64,000 nucleotides of DNA. It comes from Lutimonas saemankumensis (GTDB lineage Bacteria; Bacteroidota; Bacteroidia; Flavobacteriales; Flavobacteriaceae). The DNA lies in assembly GCF_020171465.1 (NCBI RefSeq), contig NZ_JAIUZR010000005.1, forward strand, positions 310,001-374,000. Reading direction: 5' to 3'. A program made the position numbers and the translations under genes. How positions within the stretch are numbered: the stretch's first letter is position 1; every line of letters begins with the position of its first letter. Shown here piece after piece: positions 14,672 through 26,659 of this stretch. The notes beneath the pieces were generated by a model. That model was not told where the DNA came from. It ran no database searches and saw only the letters and a program-made list of their open reading frames with translations.

Positions 14672-15373
14672 ATGCCTTGGCTTATGACTTCAGTAAACAA
14701 TAATTCATCAGGAAATCCCGAAAAAAAGACCCTTACCATTGTTCATCTTTTACATCCATATGCGAAGCAACGGATTAGAGTGGGCGAAATATTGGGGATC
14801 TTTCCAAGAAACATGTACAAATCAAATGAAATCATTGATGAGGTTGTTTTGGAAACCTATGAAAAAGGACTGCACATGGAGAATCATATCGAAGAACTTC
14901 GACTGAGTATGTTTCAGATGCTCAATGACAGGTATCAGGGATTATTTCAAACGGAAGAATGGCATAAAGATGCAATAAGCACCAAGTATATTCTGGAGCA
15001 GGAATTAAAACAGCTTGAAGAAAATTTTACGACGGATGGAGGAAATGATCTGATTATGAATGAAGAGTTGGATGATATTTCCTATCATCAGGACGATTTG
15101 AAATCAAATGAACTTCCATATGACGATGCGGAGGAGGGAGTAAGAGCATTTTTAGGATTGGATAATGTTGAAAGCCATCCCGAATTTCATGACAGGAGTA
15201 ATTTGAGAAAAGTATATTATAAGCTACCGGTGCATACTTCGAATATTGTGGATCTGTATGTTCTTGGAAAGTTAAGTTATCATGAGATCGCATCCATTCT
15301 GAATATGGATGTTTCGGAAGTTAAAGAAATAGTCAATTTTGTAAGGGAAACAATTAAAAAACAACTTGATTAG
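14672..15373 (+). CDS. Divergent sigma-70-like / HTH protein
   Basis: I do not recognise the exact family of this 233-residue protein. Residues about 194-230 (LPVHTSNIVDLYVLGKLSYH, then EIASILNMDVSEVKEI) look like a sigma-70 region 4 helix-turn-helix. Residues about 24-65 (LLHPYAKQRIRVGEI, then IIDEVVLETYEKG) resemble a weak region 2. An acidic linker (about 105-155) separates the two. It could be a divergent sigma factor or a regulator derived from one. It stands alone between the envelope cluster and the arginine operon, behind the inverted repeat at 14561-14630. An alternative start is Met5 at 14684. Confidence 0.65.
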   Translation: MPWLMTSVNNNSSGNPEKKTLTIVHLLHPYAKQRIRVGEILGIFPRNMYKSNEIIDEVVLETYEKGLHMENHIEELRLSMFQMLNDRYQGLFQTEEWHKDAISTKYILEQELKQLEENFTTDGGNDLIMNEELDDISYHQDDLKSNELPYDDAEEGVRAFLGLDNVESHPEFHDRSNLRKVYYKLPVHTSNIVDLYVLGKLSYHEIASILNMDVSEVKEIVNFVRETIKKQLD

Positions 15374-15448: not shown

Positions 15449-15456
15449 TAATATTG
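15449..15456 (+). promoter_or_regulatory. Possible -7 element of the arginine/proline operon
   Basis: TAATATTG differs from TAnnTTTG at one base and is the best box in this region. It ends 4 nt before the GTG of the Arg-rich leader ORF, so if used, transcription would begin at or next to that GTG and the leader would be leaderless or nearly so. A promoter further upstream is equally possible. Confidence 0.3.
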
Positions 15457-15460
15457 CAGT

Positions 15461-15535
15461 GTGAATACGAAAAGACCATATTCTTCTACACGATTTGAAC
15501 GCCGCCGTCCCGCACGCCGCCCGCGTTCAATCTAA
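15461..15535 (+). CDS. Candidate arginine/proline-rich leader peptide
   Basis: A GTG-initiated ORF of 24 codons plus TAA lies about 220 nt upstream of the first gene of the arginine/proline operon. Arg occurs at positions 5, 11, 14, 15, 16, 19, 20 and 22, and Pro at 6, 17 and 21; the core reads FERRRPARRPR. Six of the eight Arg codons are CGC or CGT, and the block is strikingly GC-rich within AT-rich DNA. The Arg run lies inside a potential hairpin (TTGAACGC 15495-15502 with GCGTTCAA 15523-15530). The operon makes exactly these two amino acids. The start codon is uncertain, since an in-frame TAA at 15449 leaves no ATG. Confidence 0.7.
   Translation: MNTKRPYSSTRFERRRPARRPRSI
15495..15530 (+). 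promoter_or_regulatory. Hairpin enclosing the Arg codon run of the leader
   Basis: A perfect 8-bp stem TTGAACGC / GCGTTCAA encloses a 20-nt, C-rich loop that holds the codons for Arg14 to Pro21 of the leader. A ribosome paused on these codons would keep the stem open. What the freed arm would pair with instead is not clear. Confidence 0.55.
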
Positions 15536-15753
15536 TGGTATTAAAAATTTCAGTTCACATTTCAATAATTACACAATGCATTTTTTCAGGTTTTTTATTT
15601 CAACATTCATCTTTAAAGTATCAGTTTTAAAGAACTTTGTTTTTCCATTTCCCCTTAATCGCCGCCCGTAAGGGTATATTCTTGTATTAGGAGATAGGTG
15701 AGTCCATCTCTGTTTATCGCTCATTTTTTTCGAAATTTATTTAAGTCATCAGG
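15536..15753 (+). promoter_or_regulatory. Untranslated leader between leader peptide and first operon gene
   Basis: Besides the second short ORF, this stretch has an A/T hairpin TCTTTAAA / TTTAAAGA (15610-15617 with 15626-15633) followed by CTTTGTTTTT, which could act as a weak terminator. There is also a GAGAT / ATCTC stem near 15690-15710. A purine-rich AGGAG precedes a GTG near 15700, opening a 22-codon frame that ends inside the GNAT gene. None is a strong Rho-independent terminator. Confidence 0.45.
15576..15671 (+). other. Second short ORF in the operon leader, ending Arg-Arg-Pro-stop
   Basis: ATG at 15576 opens 31 codons, Phe-rich, ending CGC CGC CCG TAA. The nonamer CGCCGCCCG (15660-15668) also occurs in the first leader ORF (15515-15523), and both copies are read in frame as Arg-Arg-Pro. 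The copy here lies in the loop of a 6-bp hairpin CCCTTA / TAAGGG (15652-15657 with 15669-15674) whose right arm contains the stop codon. Translation is unproven; the Phe richness may only reflect T-rich DNA. Confidence 0.4.
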
Positions 15754-16383
15754 ATGGAAATTGTAATTGCATCACAGAAACATACAAAATACGCTCAAAT
15801 CATCAGTAAAACCATTGATAACTCTGCAAATCAAAGAGGAACTGGTATTGCTAAAAGAACGCCCGAGTATATTGAAGAGAAAATAAAAAACGGCAATGCT
15901 GTCATTGCACTTGAAGGTGAAAAGTTTGCCGGTTTTTGTTATATAGAAACCTTTGGGGGAAAGAATTTCGTAGTTCATTCAGGATTAATTGTACATCCTG
16001 ATTTTAGAAATCAGGGCCTGGCAAAAAAGATTAAGACCAAAGTTTTTAAATACTCGCAGGAGAAATTTCCCGATTCGAAAATATTTGGTATTACAACCGG
16101 ATTAGCGGTCATGAAGATAAACTATGACCTGGGTTATAAACCCGTCACGTTTTCTGAATTAACGGATGATCCTGAATTTTGGAAGGGCTGTCAGACTTGC
16201 AGAAACTATGATGTTTTACAACGTACCAACCAAAAGATGTGTCTTTGCACCGGTATGTTATATGACGGAAAGAAAAAGGTCAAAAAAGAGCATCCTTATA
16301 ATTCTAAAAGTTTAAGCAGGTTGAAAAGGATCAAGCAAAGCCTGTTCTTAAAAAAGAAAGAAAAGAATAAAAAAACAGATTAA
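15754..16383 (+). CDS. GNAT N-acyltransferase, probable glutamate N-acyltransferase of arginine synthesis
   Basis: This 209-residue protein has a GNAT fold: VIALEGEKFAGFCYIE, then the acyl-CoA loop VHPDFRNQGLAKKI (about 80-93), then FGITTGLAVMKINYDLGYKPV. As first gene of the arginine operon it is the natural candidate for the N-acetylglutamate or N-succinylglutamate synthase; no argJ or classical argA is present here. Behind the GNAT fold lies a Cys cluster (Cys146, Cys149, Cys163, Cys165) that could bind a metal, and then a strongly basic Lys-rich tail (about 172-208). The role is inferred from position and fold. argG follows after 47 nt. Confidence 0.75.
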   Translation: MEIVIASQKHTKYAQIISKTIDNSANQRGTGIAKRTPEYIEEKIKNGNAVIALEGEKFAGFCYIETFGGKNFVVHSGLIVHPDFRNQGLAKKIKTKVFKYSQEKFPDSKIFGITTGLAVMKINYDLGYKPVTFSELTDDPEFWKGCQTCRNYDVLQRTNQKMCLCTGMLYDGKKKVKKEHPYNSKSLSRLKRIKQSLFLKKKEKNKKTD

Positions 16384-16430: not shown

Positions 16431-17612
16431 ATGAAGAAATTAGTTTTAGCATATAGTGGAGGGTTAGACACCTCATATTGCGCAAAATACCTTTCAAAGG
16501 TTCAGGGTTATGAAGTACACGCGGTCAGTGTTAATACAGGTGGATTTGAAAAAGAAGAGATCACCTCCATTGGAGAAAAGGCGGTTCAGTTAGGGGCTTC
16601 AACCTATACTTCAATAGATGCCGTGAGCACTTTTTATGATAAAGTTGTCAAGTACCTCATTTATGGAAACGTTTTAAAGAATAATACCTATCCGCTTTCC
16701 GTTAGTGCCGAAAGGATCATTCAGGCGATTGAAATAGTCAACTACGCAAAAAAAATAGGTGCTTCTTATATAGCTCATGGAAGTACAGGTGCGGGAAATG
16801 ACCAGGTCAGGTTTGATATGATCTTTCAAACACTTGCTCCGGATATTGAAATTATTACTCCGATAAGGGACAATAAACTTTCAAGGCAAGAAGAGATTGA
16901 ATTTTTGAAGGAAAATGGAGTTGACCTGCCATGGGAGAAGGCAAAATATTCGATCAACAGGGGATTGTGGGGTACAAGCGTAGGGGGAGAAGAAACGTTA
17001 AGCTCTCATTCTGGCCTACCGGAAGAAGCCTATCCGAGCCAATTGAAAAAAAATGATCCGACCGATCTGAAGCTGACTTTTAAAAAAGGAGAACTTGTGG
17101 CGATCAACGATCAATCTTATGGACATATTGAAGCCATTGAGACTTTGGAAAAACTGGCTTCTGCCTACGCCATCGGAAGAGATATTCATGTGGGAGATAC
17201 AATAATAGGTATTAAAGGAAGGGTTGGTTTTGAGGCTGCAGCACCATTGCTGATCATCAAAGCACATCACTTACTTGAAAAACATACTTTGACAAAATGG
17301 CAACAGCATCATAAAGAGCAATTGGGCAACTGGTATGGCATGCTACTTCATGAAGGGCAGTATTTGGACGAGGTGATGAGAAATTTTGAATCTTTTCTAA
17401 CGGATACGCAAAAGAATGTAAGCGGAGATGTGTTCGTAACCCTTCATCCTTACAGGTTTACTTTGAATGGAATATCTTCTGATCATGACCTAATGAATTC
17501 TTCTTTTGCCAGTTACGGAGAGACAAATGAAGGATGGACGGCTGATGACGCCAAAGGATTTATCAAAATTACGGCAAATCAGGGAAAAATATTTAATCAT
17601 GTCAATTCATAA
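16431..17612 (+). CDS. argG: Argininosuccinate synthase
   Basis: ArgG joins citrulline and aspartate using ATP. The 393-residue product carries the ATP-binding AYSGGLDTSYC loop near the N-terminus, HGSTGAGNDQVRFD in the middle, and the citrulline/aspartate-binding region KYSINRGLWGTSVGGEE. It is of the shorter type common in Bacteroidota. Only 3 nt separate it from argC. Confidence 0.96.
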   Translation: MKKLVLAYSGGLDTSYCAKYLSKVQGYEVHAVSVNTGGFEKEEITSIGEKAVQLGASTYTSIDAVSTFYDKVVKYLIYGNVLKNNTYPLSVSAERIIQAIEIVNYAKKIGASYIAHGSTGAGNDQVRFDMIFQTLAPDIEIITPIRDNKLSRQEEIEFLKENGVDLPWEKAKYSINRGLWGTSVGGEETLSSHSGLPEEAYPSQLKKNDPTDLKLTFKKGELVAINDQSYGHIEAIETLEKLASAYAIGRDIHVGDTIIGIKGRVGFEAAAPLLIIKAHHLLEKHTLTKWQQHHKEQLGNWYGMLLHEGQYLDEVMRNFESFLTDTQKNVSGDVFVTLHPYRFTLNGISSDHDLMNSSFASYGETNEGWTADDAKGFIKITANQGKIFNHVNS

Positions 17613-17615
17613 ACG

Positions 17616-18593
17616 ATGATCAAAGCAGGCATAATTGGAGGTGCGGGATATACGGCAGGAGAACTGATCAGATTGATTCTGAATCATCCGGGGATGGAGC
17701 TGGATTTTGTTTACAGCACCTCTAATTCCGGAAATAAAATATATCATATTCACTCAGATCTTATCGGTGAAACCGAGATGAAGTTCAGCCAGGAGATCAA
17801 TCCTGAAATTAACGTTTTGTTCTTATGTCTGGGGCATGGGAACTCCAAGGCGTTTTTAGAAAATCAAGATTTTTCCGATCATACAAAAATCATTGATCTG
17901 AGTAATGATTTCAGGCTTACAGGTGACAGTCAATTTAAAGGGAAAAAGTTTGTCTACGGACTTCCAGAGGTTTTTAATAAGGAGATTCAGGAAGCTTCCT
18001 GCCTGGCTAATCCCGGATGTTTTGCTACAGCCATTCAGCTTGCTCTTTTACCTCTGGCAGCGAATAATTTGTTGAATGACGACATTCATGTAAATGCCGT
18101 GACAGGAGCTACCGGGGCAGGAGTTTCCTTGTCCAAAACAACTCATTTTACCTGGCGCGATAATAATTTTTCTCATTATAAGGCATTTGATCATCAACAT
18201 TTAGGTGAGATCAATCAGACTCTGGGAATACTGCAGGAAGGCTTTGAAGAAGAGGTGATTTTCATTCCTAACAGAGGGAACTTTAGCAGAGGTATTTTTG
18301 CCACGGCATACACGGATTTCAGTGGAAGTATAGAAGAGGCCAATTCCCTTTTCGAAAGCTATTATAAGGATGCCTCTTTTACTCATGTGTCATCATCGGA
18401 AATATTTCTGAAGCAAGTGGTTAACACAAATAAGTGCCTGATCCATTTAAAAAAGCACAAGGATAAAATATTGATAACCAGCGCTATTGATAATTTGCTT
18501 AAAGGCGCATCGGGTCAGGCAATTCAAAATATGAATATCATGTTCGGGCTTGAAGAAGATTTGGGTCTGTCACTTAAAGCTAACTTTTTTTAA
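17616..18593 (+). CDS. argC: N-acetyl-gamma-glutamyl-phosphate reductase
   Basis: ArgC reduces N-acyl-glutamyl phosphate to the semialdehyde with NADPH. The 325-residue product has the Rossmann start AGIIGGAGYTAGELIRL and the catalytic Cys135 in LANPGCFATA, followed by AVTGATGAGVSL. With an N-succinyl pathway the substrate would be the succinylated form. It lies 11 nt before proC. Confidence 0.95.
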   Translation: MIKAGIIGGAGYTAGELIRLILNHPGMELDFVYSTSNSGNKIYHIHSDLIGETEMKFSQEINPEINVLFLCLGHGNSKAFLENQDFSDHTKIIDLSNDFRLTGDSQFKGKKFVYGLPEVFNKEIQEASCLANPGCFATAIQLALLPLAANNLLNDDIHVNAVTGATGAGVSLSKTTHFTWRDNNFSHYKAFDHQHLGEINQTLGILQEGFEEEVIFIPNRGNFSRGIFATAYTDFSGSIEEANSLFESYYKDASFTHVSSSEIFLKQVVNTNKCLIHLKKHKDKILITSAIDNLLKGASGQAIQNMNIMFGLEEDLGLSLKANFF

Positions 18594-18604
18594 TCTAAAG
18601 AACT

Positions 18605-19402
18605 ATGAAAATAGCGATCATCGGAGTAGGAAATCTAGGTTATTCCATAGCAGTTGGAATCCTTGGCCAAAAAAAGGAAATAGGATGCAAATCGCTGTAT
18701 CTGACCAAAAGAAATACTTCTTCACTGAATCATTTTGATAAAGTATCACTGATAAAAACAACCACTGACAACAGACGTGCCGTAAAGTATTCTGATGTGA
18801 TTATTCTGGCGGTTCAACCCACTCAATTGATGGAGGTTCTAAAAGAAATTCGAGATTTAATAGACCCTAAAAAACACATCATCATTTCTGTGGCTACCGG
18901 AAGAAAAATCAGTGACATAGAGGCTTTGTTACCACAGGGGGTACCGGTTATCAGATGTATGCCCAATACAGCGATTTCAGTAGGACAATCGATGACCTGT
19001 ATCAGCGCAAATGAGGTGGCTCAGGCTAATGTCCATAAGGCAAAAAGCATATTCAATGCCTTGGGAGAAACCATGTGCATTGAGGAAAGTTTAATGCAGG
19101 CAGCTACAGTAATATGTGCAAGCGGCATCGCATTTTGGATGCGATTGATCCGAGCTACAACTCAGGGTGCCGTTCAACTAGGATTTCACAGTGAAGAAGC
19201 CCAAAAGCTTTCTATGCAAACCTGTCTTGGAGCTGCCAGTCTGCTTATTGATTCTCAAAGTCATCCTGAGCAGGAAATAGACAAGGTAACCACCCCAAGC
19301 GGTTGTACCATAGAAGGACTAAATGAGATGGAGCATCAGGGGCTGAGTTCCTCTATCATCAAGGGGCTGGTCACCTCCTATGAAAAAATAAACCAGATTT
19401 AA
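18605..19402 (+). CDS. proC: Pyrroline-5-carboxylate reductase
   Basis: ProC reduces pyrroline-5-carboxylate to proline with NAD(P)H. The 265-residue product shows the Rossmann motif IAIIGVGNLGYSIAVGIL, VIILAVQPTQLMEVL, and the family block RCMPNTAISVGQSMTCI. The C-terminal helical region ends with TTPSGCTIEGLNEMEHQGL. A proline gene within an arginine operon fits the common precursor chemistry. Confidence 0.94.
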   Translation: MKIAIIGVGNLGYSIAVGILGQKKEIGCKSLYLTKRNTSSLNHFDKVSLIKTTTDNRRAVKYSDVIILAVQPTQLMEVLKEIRDLIDPKKHIIISVATGRKISDIEALLPQGVPVIRCMPNTAISVGQSMTCISANEVAQANVHKAKSIFNALGETMCIEESLMQAATVICASGIAFWMRLIRATTQGAVQLGFHSEEAQKLSMQTCLGAASLLIDSQSHPEQEIDKVTTPSGCTIEGLNEMEHQGLSSSIIKGLVTSYEKINQI

Positions 19403-19412
19403 ACGATACCAC

Positions 19413-20564
19413 ATGGAATTATTTGATGTATATCCACTCTATAACGTAACCCCAGTCAGGGCCAGGGGCTGTTATGTGATTGACGATAACGGGAAAAGCT
19501 ATCTGGATCTTTACGGAGGGCACGGGGTGATCTCAATAGGTCATAGTCATGAACAATACGTAAAAAGGTTGAGTGAGCAATTGAGTAAAATGGGATTCTA
19601 TAGTAACTCCATAAAGAATCCCTTGCAGGAAGAACTGGCAGGAAAGCTGGGAGAAATATCCGGTTGTCCGGATTATAATTTATTTCTCTGTAATTCTGGA
19701 GCAGAGGCAAATGAAAATGCGCTGAAAATGGCTTCTTTTGAAACAGGTAAAAAGAAGATCGTCGCCTTTCATAAGGCATTTCATGGAAGGACGTCGGCTG
19801 CGGTTGCGGCAACGGACAATATAAAGATCAACGCTCCTTTAAACAAACAACAGGAAGTAGTTTTTCTTCCTTTAAACGATGTGGGCGCCCTGGAAACCGA
19901 ATTGAAAAAGGGTGACACAGCAGCGGTTATCATTGAAGGGATTCAGGGAGTTGGAGGGCTTAATCAAGGGTCAAAAGAATTCTTTCAGGCTTTAGAGAGT
20001 TTATGCAGACAATACCACGCTGTATTGATCTTGGATGAAATTCAATCTGGTTTTGGAAGAAGTGGTAAATTCTTTTCATTTCAGCATCATGGAATACAAC
20101 CGGATATTATCAGTATGGCGAAAGGAATGGGAAATGGATTTCCGATTGGAGGAATTCTGATTTCTAATAAAATAAAGGCTTCTTACGGTTTACTGGGAAC
20201 GACGTTTGGAGGTAATCATTTGGCATGCGCGGCATGTTTAGCCGTTCTCGAAGTAATTTCTGATGAGGGCTTAATGGATAATGTCAAAAGTATATCAAAG
20301 TATTTTCTGGAGAGAATAAAGGAAATTGGCCCTGTAAAAGCGGTTAAGGGAAAAGGACTTATGCTTGGTGCTTCCTTTGATTTTCCCGTAGCTGAACTGA
20401 GGAAATCCCTGATTTATGAAGAAGGTATATTTACCGGCGGGTCATCAGATCCTAATCTTCTGAGAATCTTGCCCCCTTTGTCAGTGGGTAAGAAAGAAAT
20501 TGACCTTTTTATTGAGGCCCTGAAAAATGTATTGACAAAAATGCTGAATCATGAATCCAGTTAA
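19413..20564 (+). CDS. argD: Acetyl/succinylornithine aminotransferase
   Basis: This class III PLP aminotransferase converts N-acyl-glutamate semialdehyde to N-acyl-ornithine. The 383-residue product has NSGAEANENALKMA, FHKAFHGRTSAA, LILDEIQSGFGRSGKFF and the PLP-binding Lys237 in DIISMAKGMGNGFPIGG. Position in the operon decides the ornithine role; the family also includes other aminotransferases. proA follows within about 10 nt. Confidence 0.93.
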   Translation: MELFDVYPLYNVTPVRARGCYVIDDNGKSYLDLYGGHGVISIGHSHEQYVKRLSEQLSKMGFYSNSIKNPLQEELAGKLGEISGCPDYNLFLCNSGAEANENALKMASFETGKKKIVAFHKAFHGRTSAAVAATDNIKINAPLNKQQEVVFLPLNDVGALETELKKGDTAAVIIEGIQGVGGLNQGSKEFFQALESLCRQYHAVLILDEIQSGFGRSGKFFSFQHHGIQPDIISMAKGMGNGFPIGGILISNKIKASYGLLGTTFGGNHLACAACLAVLEVISDEGLMDNVKSISKYFLERIKEIGPVKAVKGKGLMLGASFDFPVAELRKSLIYEEGIFTGGSSDPNLLRILPPLSVGKKEIDLFIEALKNVLTKMLNHESS

Positions 20565-20574
20565 AGACAGAAGT

Positions 20575-21771
20575 ATGGAATCGATATTAACCACAGAGCA
20601 AAGGAACAGCGTTTTGTTCACCATGGCAGAACTTGTTCGCAAAGAACAAAAAGATATTCTTGAGGCTAACGCTCTTGACATGTCCGGATTTGATCAGAAT
20701 GACCTGGCAATGTACGATCGTTTAAAAGTAGATCAAGAGAAAATAGACGGGATGATACTGTCTTTACAGCAACTGGCGCAGCAGGAAGATCCGATAGGCG
20801 TTGAACGATTTCATTTTAAGCATGAGAGCGGACTCGATGTCTACAACAAAACTGCCTCCTTTGGAACAGTGATGATCATTTATGAATCAAGACCGGATGT
20901 AACCATTGAAGCTGGCGGTATTGCTTTTAAATCAGGTAATAAAATTCTTCTCAAAGGAGGTAAGGAAGCTTTAAATTCAAATTTGGCGATTGTGAATTTA
21001 TGGCATAAAGCCCTTGACAAAAATGGTATAAGTAAAGATTGGGTGACCTATTTAAATTATGATCGAAAACAGACAAGAACTTTTTTAAAGAATCCTGATC
21101 AAAAGATTGACCTAATCATTCCAAGAGGAGGAGAACGTTTGATTGAATTTGTAAAAGACAATGCCACTTGTCCTGTTATCGTCAGTGGCAGGGGCAATAA
21201 TTTTGTCTTTGTTGACAAGGAAGCGGATACTGAAAAAGCATTGGAAATAATCATTAATGCCAAAACAGCTAAGATTTCAGCATGTAACGCTTTAGATAAG
21301 GTGCTTATTGATAAAAATTTTCCTGATTATGATGGGTTTGTCAAAGAGCTGATCAGGAAATTAAAAGACTTTGATGTGGAAATTATGGGTGGAAAAGGAT
21401 TCAATGATTTTGAAGGTGTCAAAACAATAACTGACGAGCTAATATGGTACGAGGAATTTCTTGATTACAAGATAGTTTTGGGAGAAGTAAGTTCAGCTCA
21501 GGAAGCAGTAAGAATGATAAACAAATACGGAGGGGGACATTCAGCTTCGATTGTCACTGAAAATAAAAATGAGGCTGATTTCTTTCTCGAGGCAGTAGAT
21601 GCTGCTGCTGTTTATCATAATGCCTCCACCAGGTTTACAGATGGGTTTCAATTTGGTTTAGGCGGAGAATTAGCAATAAGTACGGATAAACTTCATCAAA
21701 GGGGCCCTATAGGCCTTCAGCATTTGGTGACCAATAAATGGTATGTATACGGCAATGGGCAAATCAGGTAA
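20575..21771 (+). CDS. proA: Glutamate-5-semialdehyde dehydrogenase (gamma-glutamyl phosphate reductase)
   Basis: ProA reduces gamma-glutamyl phosphate to glutamate-5-semialdehyde. The start at 20575 gives 398 residues, a usual length, and a 10-nt gap to argD; an ATG at 20551 would overlap argD by 14 nt. Catalytic Cys237 lies in KTAKISACNALDKVLID, and further blocks are MIIYESRPDVTIEAGG, LLKGGKEA and IPRGGERLIEFV. It overlaps the start of proB. Confidence 0.94.
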   Translation: MESILTTEQRNSVLFTMAELVRKEQKDILEANALDMSGFDQNDLAMYDRLKVDQEKIDGMILSLQQLAQQEDPIGVERFHFKHESGLDVYNKTASFGTVMIIYESRPDVTIEAGGIAFKSGNKILLKGGKEALNSNLAIVNLWHKALDKNGISKDWVTYLNYDRKQTRTFLKNPDQKIDLIIPRGGERLIEFVKDNATCPVIVSGRGNNFVFVDKEADTEKALEIIINAKTAKISACNALDKVLIDKNFPDYDGFVKELIRKLKDFDVEIMGGKGFNDFEGVKTITDELIWYEEFLDYKIVLGEVSSAQEAVRMINKYGGGHSASIVTENKNEADFFLEAVDAAAVYHNASTRFTDGFQFGLGGELAISTDKLHQRGPIGLQHLVTNKWYVYGNGQIR

Positions 21772-22537
21772 AACAAGGGTTCTTTTAAAGATTGGAACAA
21801 ATACCCTGACTAAGGAAACTTCGCAGATCTCCAGAGGAAAAATTGAAGATATTGGCAGACAGATTTCTGAATTGCAGGACAGATATGAATTCATTATTGT
21901 GAGTTCTGGTGCCATAGCCGTGGCAAAGCAATTTGTAAAGTTGGAGTCAAGCGGTATGGAAATTAATGTAAAACAGGCCCTGGCAGCAATCGGTCAGCCA
22001 CACCTGATGAGGATTTTTCAGGAAAATTTCCGTGAACTTGGCTTGCTTACTTCCCAGTGCCTTTTGTCATACGCTGATTTTGAAAGGGAAAAATCCAGAG
22101 AGAATATTGTAAATACTCTAAATGTATTATTGGAAAATAATTATATCCCCATAATTAACGAAAATGATACGGTAGCTACTGATGAGATCCAATTTGGAGA
22201 CAATGATAAACTGGCGGCCTTGACAGCAGCATTAATAAAGGCAGATCTGGTTATAATAGCTACCAATACAGATGGTATTTATACCAAAGAAAGCATGGGT
22301 CTAAACAACAAGAAAACCATTTTAAAAGTTGAGGACCTCTCTTCTCTGAGAAATGAAATATCCGATGGAAAAAGCTCTCATGGAACCGGAGGGATGCTCT
22401 CAAAGATAGAGGCGGCAGAAATTTTAAAAGATAATGATATAGAAACCTGGATTCTCAATGGAATTGGCGATAATTTTATGATCAATGCCTTCAATGAGAA
22501 GATCCCGTTCACGAAAATTTTAAACCAGATAAAATGA
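21755..22537 (+). CDS. proB: Glutamate 5-kinase, short form without PUA domain
   Basis: ProB phosphorylates glutamate as the first step to proline. The start at 21755 (MGKSGKTRVLLKIG) is preferred; an ATG at 21743 adds four residues. The product of about 260 residues is only the amino-acid kinase domain (LLKIGTNTLTKET, IVSSGAIAVAKQF, INENDTVATDEIQFGDNDKL, GTGGMLSKIEAAEI) and lacks the C-terminal PUA domain of the enterobacterial enzyme. It overlaps proA by 17 nt and the next gene by 4 nt, so translation is likely coupled. Confidence 0.94.
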   Translation: MGKSGKTRVLLKIGTNTLTKETSQISRGKIEDIGRQISELQDRYEFIIVSSGAIAVAKQFVKLESSGMEINVKQALAAIGQPHLMRIFQENFRELGLLTSQCLLSYADFEREKSRENIVNTLNVLLENNYIPIINENDTVATDEIQFGDNDKLAALTAALIKADLVIIATNTDGIYTKESMGLNNKKTILKVEDLSSLRNEISDGKSSHGTGGMLSKIEAAEILKDNDIETWILNGIGDNFMINAFNEKIPFTKILNQIK

Positions 22538-23487
22538 ATTACTTATCAATAAAGGACATAGATTCACTGGAAAACTGGGTTGAGGAAGCCAGAAACCTAA
22601 AACGGTATCCTCTTAAATACAAGCAGCTTGGATCTGATAAAACAATTGGACTGTTGTTCTTTAATCCCAGTTTAAGAACAAGATTAAGCACTCAGAAGGC
22701 AGCGCAGCAATTGGGTATGAATTGTATGGTTATGAACTTTGATAAAGAAGGCTGGGCCCTTGAATATGGTGATGGCATCGTCATGGATCAGGGAAAATCA
22801 GAGCATGTCAAAGAAGCAGCGCAGGTTATATCTCAATTTTGTGATATAATTGCCATAAGGGCTTTTGCCGGGCTGGTAGACAAAGAGCTTGACCGGGCAG
22901 AAGTGGTGTTGAACGGTTTTGTGAAGTACGCTTCGGTTCCCGTTGTTAATATGGAGAGTTCGGTAGGGCATCCTTTACAGGCTTTGGCGGATGCCATAAC
23001 CCTTGAGGAGGACAGAACAAGGATAAAGAATAAAAAACCTAAGGTAGTTTTATCCTGGGCTCCTCATCCTAAAGCCCTTCCTCACGCGGTTGCCAATTCT
23101 TTTATCGAAATGATGCAAAGGCAGGACGTGGAATTTGTAATTACGCATCCGGAAGGCTATGAACTTGACCCGGAAATTGTTAGGGAAACTAATGTTGAAT
23201 ACGATCAGAATAAAGCCTTTGAGGAGGCAGATTATATATATACAAAGAACTGGAGTTCATTCAGAGATTACGGTCAAGTTATCTCAAAGGATACTTCCTG
23301 GACTATTGATGAAGAAAAAATGGCATTGACCAATAAGGCCAGGTTCATGCACTGTTTACCGGTAAGGAGAAATGTCGTAGTGACTGATGGTGTACTGGAT
23401 AGTGAACAATCGCTGGTTATTCAGCAAGCTGATAACAGAACGTATGCGGCACAGATTGTTTTAAAGAAGATTTTGGAAAACACTTAA
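22534..23487 (+). CDS. argF': N-acetyl/N-succinyl-ornithine carbamoyltransferase
   Basis: This enzyme makes N-acyl-citrulline from N-acyl-ornithine and carbamoyl phosphate, the hallmark of the arginine route of Bacteroidota and Xanthomonas. The 317-residue product has the carbamoyl-phosphate loop FFNPSLRTRLS (plain OTCases have STRT), WAPHPKALPHAVANSF, EYDQNKAFEEADYIYTKNW and MHCLPVRRNVVVTD. The specificity position of this family, Pro in the Bacteroides succinyl enzyme and Glu in the Xanthomonas acetyl enzyme, reads Ser89 here (DQGKSEH). The preferred acyl group is therefore open, with succinyl more likely. Confidence 0.93.
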   Translation: MNYLSIKDIDSLENWVEEARNLKRYPLKYKQLGSDKTIGLLFFNPSLRTRLSTQKAAQQLGMNCMVMNFDKEGWALEYGDGIVMDQGKSEHVKEAAQVISQFCDIIAIRAFAGLVDKELDRAEVVLNGFVKYASVPVVNMESSVGHPLQALADAITLEEDRTRIKNKKPKVVLSWAPHPKALPHAVANSFIEMMQRQDVEFVITHPEGYELDPEIVRETNVEYDQNKAFEEADYIYTKNWSSFRDYGQVISKDTSWTIDEEKMALTNKARFMHCLPVRRNVVVTDGVLDSEQSLVIQQADNRTYAAQIVLKKILENT

Positions 23488-23505
23488 ATTCGAAAACAAA
23501 ACAGC

Positions 23506-24285
23506 ATGGCAAAGGAATTAACCATTGTAAAAATCGGCGGAAATGTGATAAACGATCCTGATCAGCTGATGTCTTTTCTTCGGGACTTTTCAAATCTTGA
23601 AGGGATGAAAATTCTGGTCCATGGCGGAGGTAAAAAAGCCACAGAAATGGCTGATTCCCTGGGCCTATCTCCTAAAATGACAGGTGGAAGAAGAATTACC
23701 GATGCCGCGAACCTGGAGGTGGTTACCATGGTCTATGCGGGTTTGTTAAACAAAAATATTGTCGCAAGACTTCAGGCCTTTAATTGTAATGCACTTGGAT
23801 TAAGCGGTGCTGACGCAAATGTGATAAAGGCGCATAAAAGAATTGTAAAAGAAATCGATTTTGGTTTTGCCGGTGATATCGATGAGGTGGATGCCACAAT
23901 GATATCCTCTTTTTTGGATGCTGGGTTGAGCCCGGTTTTTTCAGCTATTACGCATGATCAAAATGGGCAATTGCTCAACACAAATGCAGATACCATTGCA
24001 TCGGAAATTGCCAAGGCGATGTCGGGTATATTCAAGGTAGATTTAATATATTGCTTTGAAAAGTCAGGGGTGTTAAGAGATGTCGAAGATGAGGATTCCA
24101 TAATCGAGGAAATCAACAGGCAGTCCTATACAAGGCTGGTGGAGAATGGCGTCATTGCTGACGGAATGCTTCCTAAGCTCAAAAATTGTTACGAGGCCCT
24201 CGGGCAGGGAGTTGATAAGGTAAGAATAGGAAAGCCCGATTTAATTAGAAATAAAGAAATCAAGCATACAACTTTGAAGTTATGA
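23506..24285 (+). CDS. argB: Acetylglutamate kinase
   Basis: ArgB phosphorylates N-acyl-glutamate. The 259-residue product is an amino-acid kinase with the N-terminal TIVKIGGNVINDP, ILVHGGGKKATEMADSLGL, and NTNADTIASEIAKAM, and a C-terminal DGMLPKLKNCYEAL block. It lies 18 nt after the carbamoyltransferase and overlaps the next gene by 4 nt. Confidence 0.95.
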   Translation: MAKELTIVKIGGNVINDPDQLMSFLRDFSNLEGMKILVHGGGKKATEMADSLGLSPKMTGGRRITDAANLEVVTMVYAGLLNKNIVARLQAFNCNALGLSGADANVIKAHKRIVKEIDFGFAGDIDEVDATMISSFLDAGLSPVFSAITHDQNGQLLNTNADTIASEIAKAMSGIFKVDLIYCFEKSGVLRDVEDEDSIIEEINRQSYTRLVENGVIADGMLPKLKNCYEALGQGVDKVRIGKPDLIRNKEIKHTTLKL

Positions 24286-25340
24286 AAAATGAATTGGGAA
24301 AGGAGGCAGTTGGATTATTGATCGACCTGATCAATACGCCTTCTTTGTCCGGCGAAGAGGATAAAACAGCATTGATCTTGGAGAGATTTTTGGAGCGAAA
24401 ATCAATTTCTTTTAATAGGAATGGTAATAATATCTGGTCCCTGAATCAGTGTTTCGACGCTTCAAAACCATCGATCCTTTTAAATTCACATCATGATACG
24501 GTAAAGCCAAACAAGGGATATACAAGAGATCCTTATAAGGCATCGATTGAGGACGGAAAATTATTTGGCCTGGGTTCCAATGACGCGGGAGGTTGTTTGG
24601 TATCGTTGATTTCGGCATTCATATATTTCTATCAGAAAAAAGATCTAAAGTATAATCTGGTATTACTGGCATCAGCCGAGGAGGAGAATTCAGGGGAAAA
24701 TGGCATAAGATCCATGATTCCTTTAATCCCGGAAATCGATTTCGCTATTGTAGGAGAACCTACTTTACTGGACCTTGCCATTGCAGAAAAAGGCCTTCTG
24801 GTTTTAGATTGTTATGCTCACGGAGAAGCCGGGCATGCGGCCCATATTAGAGGAGATCACGCCATCAACAAAGCGATGCGAGCCATTAACTGGTTTGAAT
24901 CCTATACATTTCCCAAAATTTCAGAAACCCTAAAGGATACTAAAATGACCGTGACTCAGATAAATGCGGGGAGCCAGCATAATGTGGTCCCTGCTACCTG
25001 TCACTTTGTTGTCGATATCAGGGTCAATGACCATTATTCAAATGAAGAGGTCCTGAGTATTGTGAAGGACCATGTTTCTGTGGAAGTAAAAGAAAGGTCA
25101 CTCAATTTGAATTCATCTTCCATACCTGAAAATCACGAAATCGTTCAGGCAGGAATAAAAATGGGAAAACAGATTTATGGTTCTCCTACCTTATCCGATC
25201 AGGCAAATTTGAAATGCCCTTCTTTGAAGCTTGGGCCGGGCGATTCCTTGAGGTCTCATAAGGCAGATGAATTTATATACGAAGAAGAAATATATCAGGG
25301 AATTGAACTGTATATAAAGTTGTTGGAACAAATATTATAA
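24282..25340 (+). CDS. argE: M20 family N-acyl-ornithine/citrulline deacylase
   Basis: This zinc amidohydrolase removes the N-acyl group late in the pathway; next to an N-acyl-ornithine carbamoyltransferase its substrate is most likely N-acyl-citrulline. The 352-residue product has the metal ligands in LLNSHHDTVKP (His70, Asp72), GLGSNDAGG (Asp101) and ASAEEENSGENG (catalytic and metal-binding Glu133/Glu134). The dimerisation part contains EAGHAAHIRGDHAI. The gene overlaps argB by 4 nt. Confidence 0.92.
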   Translation: MKNELGKEAVGLLIDLINTPSLSGEEDKTALILERFLERKSISFNRNGNNIWSLNQCFDASKPSILLNSHHDTVKPNKGYTRDPYKASIEDGKLFGLGSNDAGGCLVSLISAFIYFYQKKDLKYNLVLLASAEEENSGENGIRSMIPLIPEIDFAIVGEPTLLDLAIAEKGLLVLDCYAHGEAGHAAHIRGDHAINKAMRAINWFESYTFPKISETLKDTKMTVTQINAGSQHNVVPATCHFVVDIRVNDHYSNEEVLSIVKDHVSVEVKERSLNLNSSSIPENHEIVQAGIKMGKQIYGSPTLSDQANLKCPSLKLGPGDSLRSHKADEFIYEEEIYQGIELYIKLLEQIL

Positions 25341-25366
25341 TCAACGAATAACCAAAAACAAAAAAT

Positions 25367-26659
25367 ATGAAACTTTGGGATAAAGGATTTAGCACCGATA
25401 AAAAGATTGATTTGTTTACCGTTGGAAACGACCGGGAGCTGGATCTGGTTTTGGCAAAATATGATGTCAAAGGCTCTTTGGCTCATGCTAAAATGTTGCA
25501 TAAAATAGGTTTGTTGACGGATGCCGAGATAGAATCGGTGCAAAAGGAACTTGAACGTATCCACGATCAAATCAATAAAGGAGAATTTGAAATTGAAGAC
25601 AGTTTTGAGGATGTCCATTCAAAAGTTGAGTTCCTGCTCACCCAGAAACTCGGAGACACAGGCAAAAAAATTCATACGGCCAGATCGCGAAATGACCAGG
25701 TTCTCGTGGATGTTCATTTGTACCTCAGGGATGAGATTAAAGAAATCAAAGCTTTGGTGAACGAGTTTTTTGAACTTTTACTGGAGCTGTCGGATAAGTA
25801 CAAGGAGATTCTCTTACCAGGTTATACCCATTTTCAGGTAGCCATGCCTTCATCGTTCGGAATGTGGTTTTCCGCCTATGCAGAGAGCCTTATAGATGAT
25901 GTCTATATGATCAATGCAGCGTATAGAGTTGTTGATCAGAATCCTTTAGGATCGGCTGCCGGTTATGGAAGCTCTTTTCCCATAGACAGGGACTTTACCA
26001 CGGAGGCTATGGAGTTTGGTGAGTTAAAGGTAAATTCCGTTGCGGCCCAGATGAGCAGGGGAAAAACGGAAAGAAATGTTGCTTTTGCAATGAGTTCTCT
26101 GGCAGGAACCCTTTCTAAATTTGCCATGGATATCTGTTTATACATGAGTCAGAATTTTGGATTTGTTTCTTTTCCGGATGAATTGACAACAGGATCGAGT
26201 ATCATGCCTCATAAAAAGAATCCTGATGTTTTTGAACTTATTAGAGGAAAATGTAATAAGATTCAGAGCCTGCCTTATGAACTTACCCTGATCATTAATA
26301 ATCTTCCAAGTGGTTACCACCGTGACCTTCAGTTGCTTAAAGAGGGGCTATTACCTGGAATACAAACCTTAAAATCCTGTTTGGAGATGTTTACATTTTC
26401 ATTGAAAAATATTCAGGTGAACAAAGAGGCGGTGGATGACAGGATTTATGATTATCTGTTTACGGTTGAAGAAGTGAATCAGCTGGTCCAGGAAGGTATT
26501 CCGTTTAGAGACGCGTATAAAATTGTTGGAGCAAAAGTGAATAAAGGTGAGTTTCAACCTTTGAAAAAAGTATCTCATTCCCATATTGGAAGTATTGGAA
26601 ATCTGGGCCTTGACAGAATCAGGAAGAAGATGATAAAGGCCAATGCCCATCACAAATAG
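25367..26659 (+). CDS. argH: Argininosuccinate lyase
   Basis: ArgH splits argininosuccinate into arginine and fumarate. The 430-residue product has HTARSRNDQV, GYTHFQVAMP, the stretch NPLGSAAGYGSSFPIDRD and the signature GSSIMPHKKNPD with Ser277/Ser278 in the catalytic loop. It is the last gene of the operon. It converges with pabB, with only 30 nt between stop codons and no strong terminator hairpin between them. Confidence 0.96.
   Translation: MKLWDKGFSTDKKIDLFTVGNDRELDLVLAKYDVKGSLAHAKMLHKIGLLTDAEIESVQKELERIHDQINKGEFEIEDSFEDVHSKVEFLLTQKLGDTGKKIHTARSRNDQVLVDVHLYLRDEIKEIKALVNEFFELLLELSDKYKEILLPGYTHFQVAMPSSFGMWFSAYAESLIDDVYMINAAYRVVDQNPLGSAAGYGSSFPIDRDFTTEAMEFGELKVNSVAAQMSRGKTERNVAFAMSSLAGTLSKFAMDICLYMSQNFGFVSFPDELTTGSSIMPHKKNPDVFELIRGKCNKIQSLPYELTLIINNLPSGYHRDLQLLKEGLLPGIQTLKSCLEMFTFSLKNIQVNKEAVDDRIYDYLFTVEEVNQLVQEGIPFRDAYKIVGAKVNKGEFQPLKKVSHSHIGSIGNLGLDRIRKKMIKANAHHK

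Follow-up and report, generated by a model that had tools for sequence, protein, structure and literature searches.

A probable arginine-sensing leader, read by the ribosome, ahead of the arginine/proline operon of Lutimonas saemankumensis and its relatives

The arginine/proline operon of Lutimonas saemankumensis is preceded by a 5′ leader that probably senses arginine by way of the ribosome, through the charging of tRNA-Arg(ACG). The leader contains two short open reading frames, ORF1 and ORF2, followed by two hairpins, H1 and H2, at fixed spacings. The ORFs, the hairpins and a strong bias in the choice of Arg codons are conserved in relatives, the stem of H2 covaries, and no arginine repressor was found in the genomes searched. 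The initial annotation of this DNA had read ORF1 as a leader peptide that senses shortage of arginine and proline together. Its arginine half, a translated leader acting as a sensor, is supported by the conserved frame, the Arg codons, the geometry of the start, the preference for CGC/CGT and the lack of an arginine repressor. The window analyzed is a stretch of 64,000 nt (positions 310001-374000 of contig 5; genome size 3.58 Mb), and the features discussed below are the following.

15449..15456, + strand: probable −7 promoter box TAATATTG (consensus TAnnTTTG)
15461..15535, + strand: ORF1, outer leader peptide VNTKRPYSSTRFERRRPARRPRSI, 24 codons, GTG start; its start probably lies near +1, which would make it nearly leaderless
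15461..15466, + strand: 5′ arm of a possible long-range stem (from folds), which would pair with 15553-15558 and shut off the stretch upstream of ORF2
15495..15530, + strand: hairpin round the Arg run of ORF1, arms 15495-15502 and 15523-15530, 8 bp, z −1.97; unconserved
15553..15558, + strand: 3′ arm of the possible long-range stem (from folds), 17 nt ahead of ORF2
15576..15671, + strand: ORF2, inner leader peptide MHFFRFFISTFIFKVSVLKNFVFPFPLNRRP-stop, ending NRRP-stop; kept in relatives
15664..15675, + strand: hairpin H1, GCCC-GUAA-GGGU; the loop holds the stop codon of ORF2, the 5′ arm its last Arg and Pro codons
15690..15711, + strand: hairpin H2, GGAGAU-A-GG-UGAGU-CC-AUCUCU; covarying stem, with the A bulge, the GG/CC pairs and the UGNGU loop almost invariant
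15754..16383, + strand: GNAT acetyltransferase, first gene of the operon (profile matches)
16431..26659, + strand: argG, argC, proC, argD, proA, proB, (acetyl)ornithine carbamoyltransferase, argB, ArgE/DapE-family deacylase, argH

The operon is indeed a joint arginine and proline operon, with the arg genes and proC, proA and proB together behind the GNAT gene. Its carbamoyltransferase is of the N-acetylornithine type, scoring over the curated cut-off. The gene called argE in the initial annotation does encode an ArgE/DapE-family deacylase, but the score is below the cut-off of that model. In relatives, argG and argC were present in all 73 long named loci and proC in 72 of them. Upstream of the leader, the gene at 14672-15373 has a weak likeness, below cut-off, to the C-terminal part of an ECF sigma factor.

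ORF1 was confirmed at 15461-15535 as a 24-codon GTG ORF with eight Arg codons, most of them CGC or CGT (AGA, CGA, CGC four times, CGT twice), and three Pro codons. Among the ORFs of 20-60 codons that the window contains on its two strands, 687 in all, it ranks first by Arg fraction. When its own letters were shuffled 20000 times, eight Arg were reached in a fraction of only 0.0002. The three Pro codons are what composition predicts (shuffle mean 2.8). Across 44 loci ORF1 contains 229 Arg against 69.9 expected, and 66 Pro against 66.8 expected. Frame and Arg codons are kept in relatives; Pro codons are not in excess in ORF1. Between relatives of equal length we counted 298 nonsynonymous and 87 synonymous codon changes (one of the 44 picks, in these counts and in those of codon bias below, is actually the ORF2 of its locus, L048). 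Such drift of the peptide apart from its Arg is expected if codons, and not the peptide, are read. Short ORFs are common, as the 687 in the window testify, but it is barely credible that ORF1 is a chance Arg-rich ORF without function, since the conservation, position, codon bias and covariation found in the leader contradict this.

The hairpin that was described as enclosing the Arg run of ORF1 is present in the window with its 8 bp. In the near relative L003, however, a mismatch already interrupts it, and no counterpart was seen by eye in L005-L009. The possible long-range stem at the start of ORF1 is weak: complementarity of the ORF1 start to downstream sequence gave a mean z of −0.98 in 48 two-ORF loci, with z below −2 in only 5.

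Many relatives carry ORF2 without ORF1. In three near relatives in the window's genus (L012, L015, L020) ORF1 is shortened to Met-Lys-Arg-stop, beside a GATAG/CTATC inverted repeat, and the stub in L010 reads Met-Lys-Ser-stop. In L135 and L194, and perhaps L162, there is an apparent fusion, in which an ORF1-like start runs straight into the Arg-Arg-Pro end of ORF2. These three-codon stubs and fusion leaders mark ORF1 as accessory and ORF2-H1-H2 as the core. Judged by sequence, ORF1 is dispensable and forms the outer, more variable half of the whole element.

The core was absent from the initial annotation and is better conserved than ORF1. We aligned 100 diverse leaders, the most different of 135 distinct H1-H2 segments, and anchored the ORF2 frames on a covariance model of H1/H2. 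The frame was open with a start codon in 100 of 100 leaders, and in 93 it ended in Arg-Pro-stop. Counting back from the end, Pro stands at position −1 in 99 leaders; Arg stands at −2 in all 100 (CGC in 99), at −3 in 95 (CGT 67, CGC 26 and CGG 1 among those listed) and at −4 in 57. The Arg codons at −2 and −3 are mostly CGT or CGC and never AGA or AGG. Seven leaders (L033, L034, L037, L039, L049, L195, L200) continue past the Pro position of H1, with ends that include RRPLG..., RRTFVRA, RRRPGRM and VRPFGYDLH. By eye, the body of ORF2 is poorly conserved between genera, and a (V/L/I)(R/S)PF-like motif recurs shortly before the C-terminus in many one-ORF species.

An end of this kind calls to mind TnaC, which likewise ends in Arg-Pro-stop and whose release is blocked by tryptophan; a TnaC R23F variant is reportedly described in an abstract. 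ORF2 might be a nascent-chain arrest peptide: bound in the ribosome, free arginine or some other ligand would prevent release at Arg-Pro-stop, and the operon would be controlled by the ribosome arrested there. The TnaC-like Pro codon right before the stop (93 of 100 leaders), the near-constant Pro and the motif shared by many one-ORF species speak for it. Arrest of the TnaC/SpeFL type depends on conserved peptide residues; here the C-terminal R-R-P of ORF2 is kept, some one-ORF species share a motif, and the body of ORF1 drifts. We find this reading decidedly unlikely, as seven leaders read past the Pro of H1, the ORF2 body varies between genera, and arrest has no need for CGC/CGT over AGA. 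TnaC also differs in having inducer-dependent arrest, conserved peptide residues and a catabolic operon.

The hairpins were evaluated in the same 100 leaders, all of which aligned, by fitting them to the covariance model. In this model-fitted alignment 95.0% of paired cells were complementary, against 86.7% in shuffles; changes on both sides occurred in 8 pairs (4.4 in shuffles) and in 111 cells (38.2 in shuffles). None of 500 shuffles reached these values. Sliding the pairing partner abolished the signal. A MAFFT alignment of 51 sequences likewise showed both-side changes in 8 of the 10 predicted pairs. Seven of the eight pairs of H2 covary, including the inner pair next to the loop, where G-C becomes A-U in three sequences. 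The bulged A of H2 is retained in 98 of 100 leaders, and its loop is UGNGU, with N being A in 78, U in 17 and C in 5, and the last U replaced by C in one sequence. For H1, which hardly varies and lacks its outer pair in 40 of 100 leaders, covariation says little. H1 is also short, and the z-scores obtained by folding in the window are modest (−0.92 and −1.30). The spacings are tight: H2 starts 14 nt beyond H1 in the window, and in the set the H1-H2 spacer measures 13-14 nt in 87 of 100 leaders and 11-15 nt in all, with 22-25 nt from the Pro codon to H2 in 98. H1 is retained even where the stop codon of ORF2 moves.

Several other pairings and frames around the hairpins were considered, and none was adopted. 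An ORF3 beginning in H2 is not kept open (L032 is an example, by eye). Base pairing between the GNAT start and H2 or H1 is slightly stronger than in mononucleotide shuffles (by −0.96 and −1.16 kcal/mol) and does not covary. Alternative pairing between H1 and H2 (CGCC/GGUG, GGGU/GUCC) is possible on paper and does not covary, with a single coincident change in L034. Rfam, including its riboswitch, leader and Flavo-1 models, gave no match above gathering in the window; in the leader there were two matches only, far below gathering and on the minus strand (E 0.13 and 3.5), and a search of seven loci, six of them arg leaders, gave no match to E 0.5.

The almost invariant loop and bulge of H2, its covarying stem and the persistence of H1 where the stop moves would all fit an RNA that acts through its structure, with a protein or a small molecule as its binding partner and the Arg-rich end of ORF2 as a by-product of a CG-rich hairpin. 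We consider it very improbable that this is mainly what the element is. The Arg at −3 lies just upstream of H1 and is kept through changes at the third codon position, ORF1 shows the same enrichment in Arg and CGY about 140 nt away, and relatives at the level of the order retain an Arg-bearing leader with different hairpins.

The position of the leader ORFs relative to the promoter would fit translation from close to the start of the transcript. The −7 consensus of Bacteroidota is TAnnTTTG, according to the part of PMC9723704 available to us, which also reports that leaderless mRNAs are rare in Flavobacterium psychrophilum (5.5%). In a scan in which the ORF was chosen without using the box, and which gave a leader candidate in 97 of 100 loci, the box lay 4-5 nt before the leader start in 44 cases and 7-8 nt before it in 27 (the counts are boxes), compared with fewer than one at each distance for control positions. 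From this spacing we infer that at most a few bases separate the start of the first leader ORF from the transcription start. Two designs can be told apart: 55 loci with one ORF (Zobellia, Maribacter and others) and 40 with two, 43 of 146 being unclassed; the classes were drawn with the box distance itself (of an original 63 one-ORF loci, 8 proved two-ORF by their box), and the independent test of the box is therefore the 97-candidate scan.

The choice of Arg codons bears on what is being read. Of the Arg codons that precede H1 in the ORF2 frame, 263 of 310 are CGC or CGT (a count spanning up to 29 open-frame codons, which may extend past the start codon), and of those in ORF1 196 of 228, giving 85-86%. 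The adjacent GNAT gene, taken as a control, has 159 of 795 (20%), and the window's longer ORFs (200 codons or more) have 95 of 677 (14%). In ORF2 the remaining codons are no richer in GC than those of the control gene (GC3 0.26, control 0.33). In ORF1 the GC3 of the other codons is 0.49 in the second half and 0.11 in the first, so part of the CGC bias of ORF1 may be compositional. The Arg codons inside H1 are inseparable from RNA pairing. The tRNA-Arg anticodons in the genome are TCT, CCT, TCG and ACG (ARAGORN saw 33 of the 34 tRNAs found by search), and it is tRNA-Arg(ACG) that reads CGC and CGT. The bias toward the codons of a single minor isoacceptor suggests that tRNA charge is what is sensed, and not a signal in the peptide.

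Of the earlier proposal, that shortage of both arginine and proline is sensed, the arginine half is the supported one. The operon makes both amino acids, with proC at the same locus in nearly all long named loci, and ORF2 shows a modest excess of internal Pro (160 against 111.6 expected, sd 8.3, last four codons left out) in addition to its terminal Pro; the Pro codons of ORF1 are skewed to CCC (47 of 66). The number of Pro in ORF1, however, is no higher than composition predicts, the choice of Pro codons in ORF2 is like that of the control gene (p 0.14), and the terminal Pro lies inside H1 and may be kept for pairing. We therefore think joint sensing unlikely.

Arginine repressor (ArgR/AhrC) domains were absent from the window's genome, and the C-terminal domain of the repressor was found in none of 299 family genomes, in a search where control genomes including a Bacteroides matched. 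The genome does use leader peptides, as is seen from its his operon: upstream of hisG (L215 ~1338-1456, contig 3) the leader MKRIALHHHHIHTCTQAR-stop has a GC hairpin and a run of seven T behind it, by sequence an ordinary intrinsic-terminator attenuator. As far as the scans show, the arg leader is built differently. No terminator was called on the + strand of the window between 15000 and 16000. Searches for an alternative antiterminator helix, by helix and by covariation, supported only H2 and, slightly, H1. The his/trp type of attenuator on which the initial annotation had drawn was hence not recovered, the scans yielding neither a strong terminator nor a covarying antiterminator. H2 as a terminator was rejected, being called in 0 of 146 relatives, of which only 14 have a T-rich tail after H2.

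Across relatives, a simple scan that does call the his-leader terminator found H1 with its spacer terminator-like in 45 of 146, compared with 5.7 in mononucleotide shuffles (a further control, which shuffled the spacer alone and gave 7.7 of 146, may reach into H1 and was set aside). The spacer is 51% T. These numbers would suit a weak intrinsic terminator formed by H1 and its T-rich spacer, covered by a ribosome paused on the Arg codons, with no separate antiterminator, which would be a simple read-out and a special case of the sensor we favor. We give this version only a minor chance of being right: it is not called in the window's own leader or in 101 of 146 relatives, the stems mostly have only 4-5 pairs, and the invariant loop of H2 would be left without a role. 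In addition, the T-rich part of the spacer adjoins H2 and the first eight bases mostly contain 2-4 T, for which reason we rate H1 as at most a weak terminator. Base content in the one-ORF class, as first drawn, was C 0.29/G 0.17 in the leader ORF, 0.21/0.08 after H2 and 0.19/0.17 upstream of the promoter; a C-rich, G-poor transcript would suit Rho, which proves nothing.

For the arginine sensor that we consider probable, the following sequence of events can be envisaged. The transcript would start at, or a few bases before, the first short ORF (ORF1, or ORF2 in one-ORF species), and a ribosome would load at once. Both peptides end in a run of CGC/CGT Arg codons, rare in the genome and read by tRNA-Arg(ACG). 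At low arginine this tRNA would be uncharged and ribosomes would pause on the CGC/CGT codons, over H1; with ample arginine the ribosome would move on as far as the stop codon, which lies in the H1 loop, and leave, and H1 and H2 would fold. The position of the ribosome relative to H1 and H2 would decide expression of the operon, and in two-ORF species ORF1 would probably also gate ORF2. The read-out may be premature termination or decay, with H1 as a weak terminator or none and H2 as an element for recognition or pausing, which is a guess. Translation, pausing, the direction of control and the read-out are the parts of this scheme that we infer.

The nearest known logic is that of Salmonella orf34-speF, for which the available part of PMC6386406 describes a short leader ORF with consecutive Arg codons that senses arginine, Rho-dependent termination with alternative RNA structures, and a hairpin downstream of the stop codon that depends on ribosome position. 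By analogy, we propose that ribosome position on the CGY run settles the state of H1 and H2 and the fate of the operon. Unlike the arg leader, orf34-speF controls an ornithine decarboxylase (polyamines), has a ~500 nt leader with one ORF and belongs to Gammaproteobacteria; neither tandem ORFs nor an H2-like loop are described in that part of the paper. The leader resembles his, trp, leu and thr attenuators, and the his leader of the same genome, in placing a leader ORF with a regulatory codon run before an amino-acid operon; it differs in having two ORFs, a fixed double hairpin and no strong terminator or covarying antiterminator. Staphylococcus aureus rbfL is also an Arg-codon leader peptide with rare codons and one minor tRNA-Arg, but there, in the available text of PMC13009471, the codons are AGA/AGG, pausing blocks the RBS of a biofilm regulator and no biosynthesis operon is involved. 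Within the same family, PMC9723704 gives clues for leader-peptide attenuation upstream of amino-acid operons in F. psychrophilum, with no arginine leader mentioned in the part available, and leader-like sORFs in long 5′ UTRs have been described for Bacteroides thetaiotaomicron (PMC7366714, in part). The claim that no arginine leader of this kind is described in Bacteroidota agrees with our search of open-licence papers, which found none for an arginine operon; arginine-sensing leaders are known elsewhere, namely orf34-speF and rbfL, though not for an arginine biosynthesis operon in the available parts of those sources.

If the proposal is true, it explains the control of arginine and proline synthesis in an environmental family where the arginine repressor was not found. 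It would also mean leader-peptide sensing with nearly leaderless starts where Shine-Dalgarno pairing is scarcely used, and without a classical terminator/antiterminator pair. The invariant loop of H2 points to a partner and is a concrete target. More tentatively, and with the chances rather against it, the leader may represent a family-wide class of ribosome-gated switch without that classical pair, in which a rigid unit of H1, spacer and H2 is fed by Arg-codon ORFs that stand in tandem and are nearly leaderless, the UGNGU pentaloop and bulged A are recognized by RNA polymerase, the ribosome or an RNA-binding protein, and the whole replaces the arginine repressor in Flavobacteriaceae. The number of terminator-like calls in relatives lowers the odds of such a terminator-less class.

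In order to assess the distribution of the element we looked for the H2 pattern ahead of the same GNAT gene and found it in 51 of 52 fetched family loci, the exception being L059. An enlarged set of 195 loci, from which two too short (L055, L064) were dropped and duplicates merged, gave 163 distinct upstream regions, 146 with the pattern and 17 without; one match of 51 residues at a contig end (G011) was left out of the locus set. The H1/H2 covariance model had matches in 188 of 299 family genomes. In the window's genome there was one strong match (E 5.9e-17); the next, at E 0.36 and worse, lie within open frames of more than 300 codons and are ascribed to chance. A sample of 395 genomes from the phylum gave 30 matches, 17 in the family and 13 outside it. 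We take the latter as chance as well (E 5.8e-5 or worse, 12 in open frames of at least 207 codons and one in a frame of 81), together with a family match in G524 (E 0.005) inside an 808-codon open frame.

Among the 111 family genomes without the motif, 20 were tested, of which 16 had no argG match and a 17th only a weak one of 31 residues. The other three (G038, G053, G071) have argG and no match to the model, and the same holds for the genus g155 in all four genomes tested. By eye, G038 and G053 have an Arg-containing leader with two other hairpins. Upstream of argG in G038 and G071 (L250, L251) a different protein of 193 codons replaces the GNAT, and in L250 a leader ending VVRFPQTRP-stop lies ahead of this gene. 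The g155 loci (L247-L249) carry, about 320-230 nt upstream of the GNAT gene, another conserved leader-like ORF, MNKxSLHITSLSRTxxPxTSPEVRML, with few Arg codons (by eye).

In other families with the same GNAT, Arg-bearing leaders with different hairpins were seen in L054, L056 and L057 (family f15), L053 and L058 (f2) and L066 (f3). No short Arg-bearing ORF was seen in the f16 loci or in two of three f5 loci, and the third f5 locus has only a distant one. The principle thus extends beyond the H2 element and is not universal. In L056 the two hairpins repeat GGGAA/CCC arms, which would make an alternative 2:3 pairing possible.
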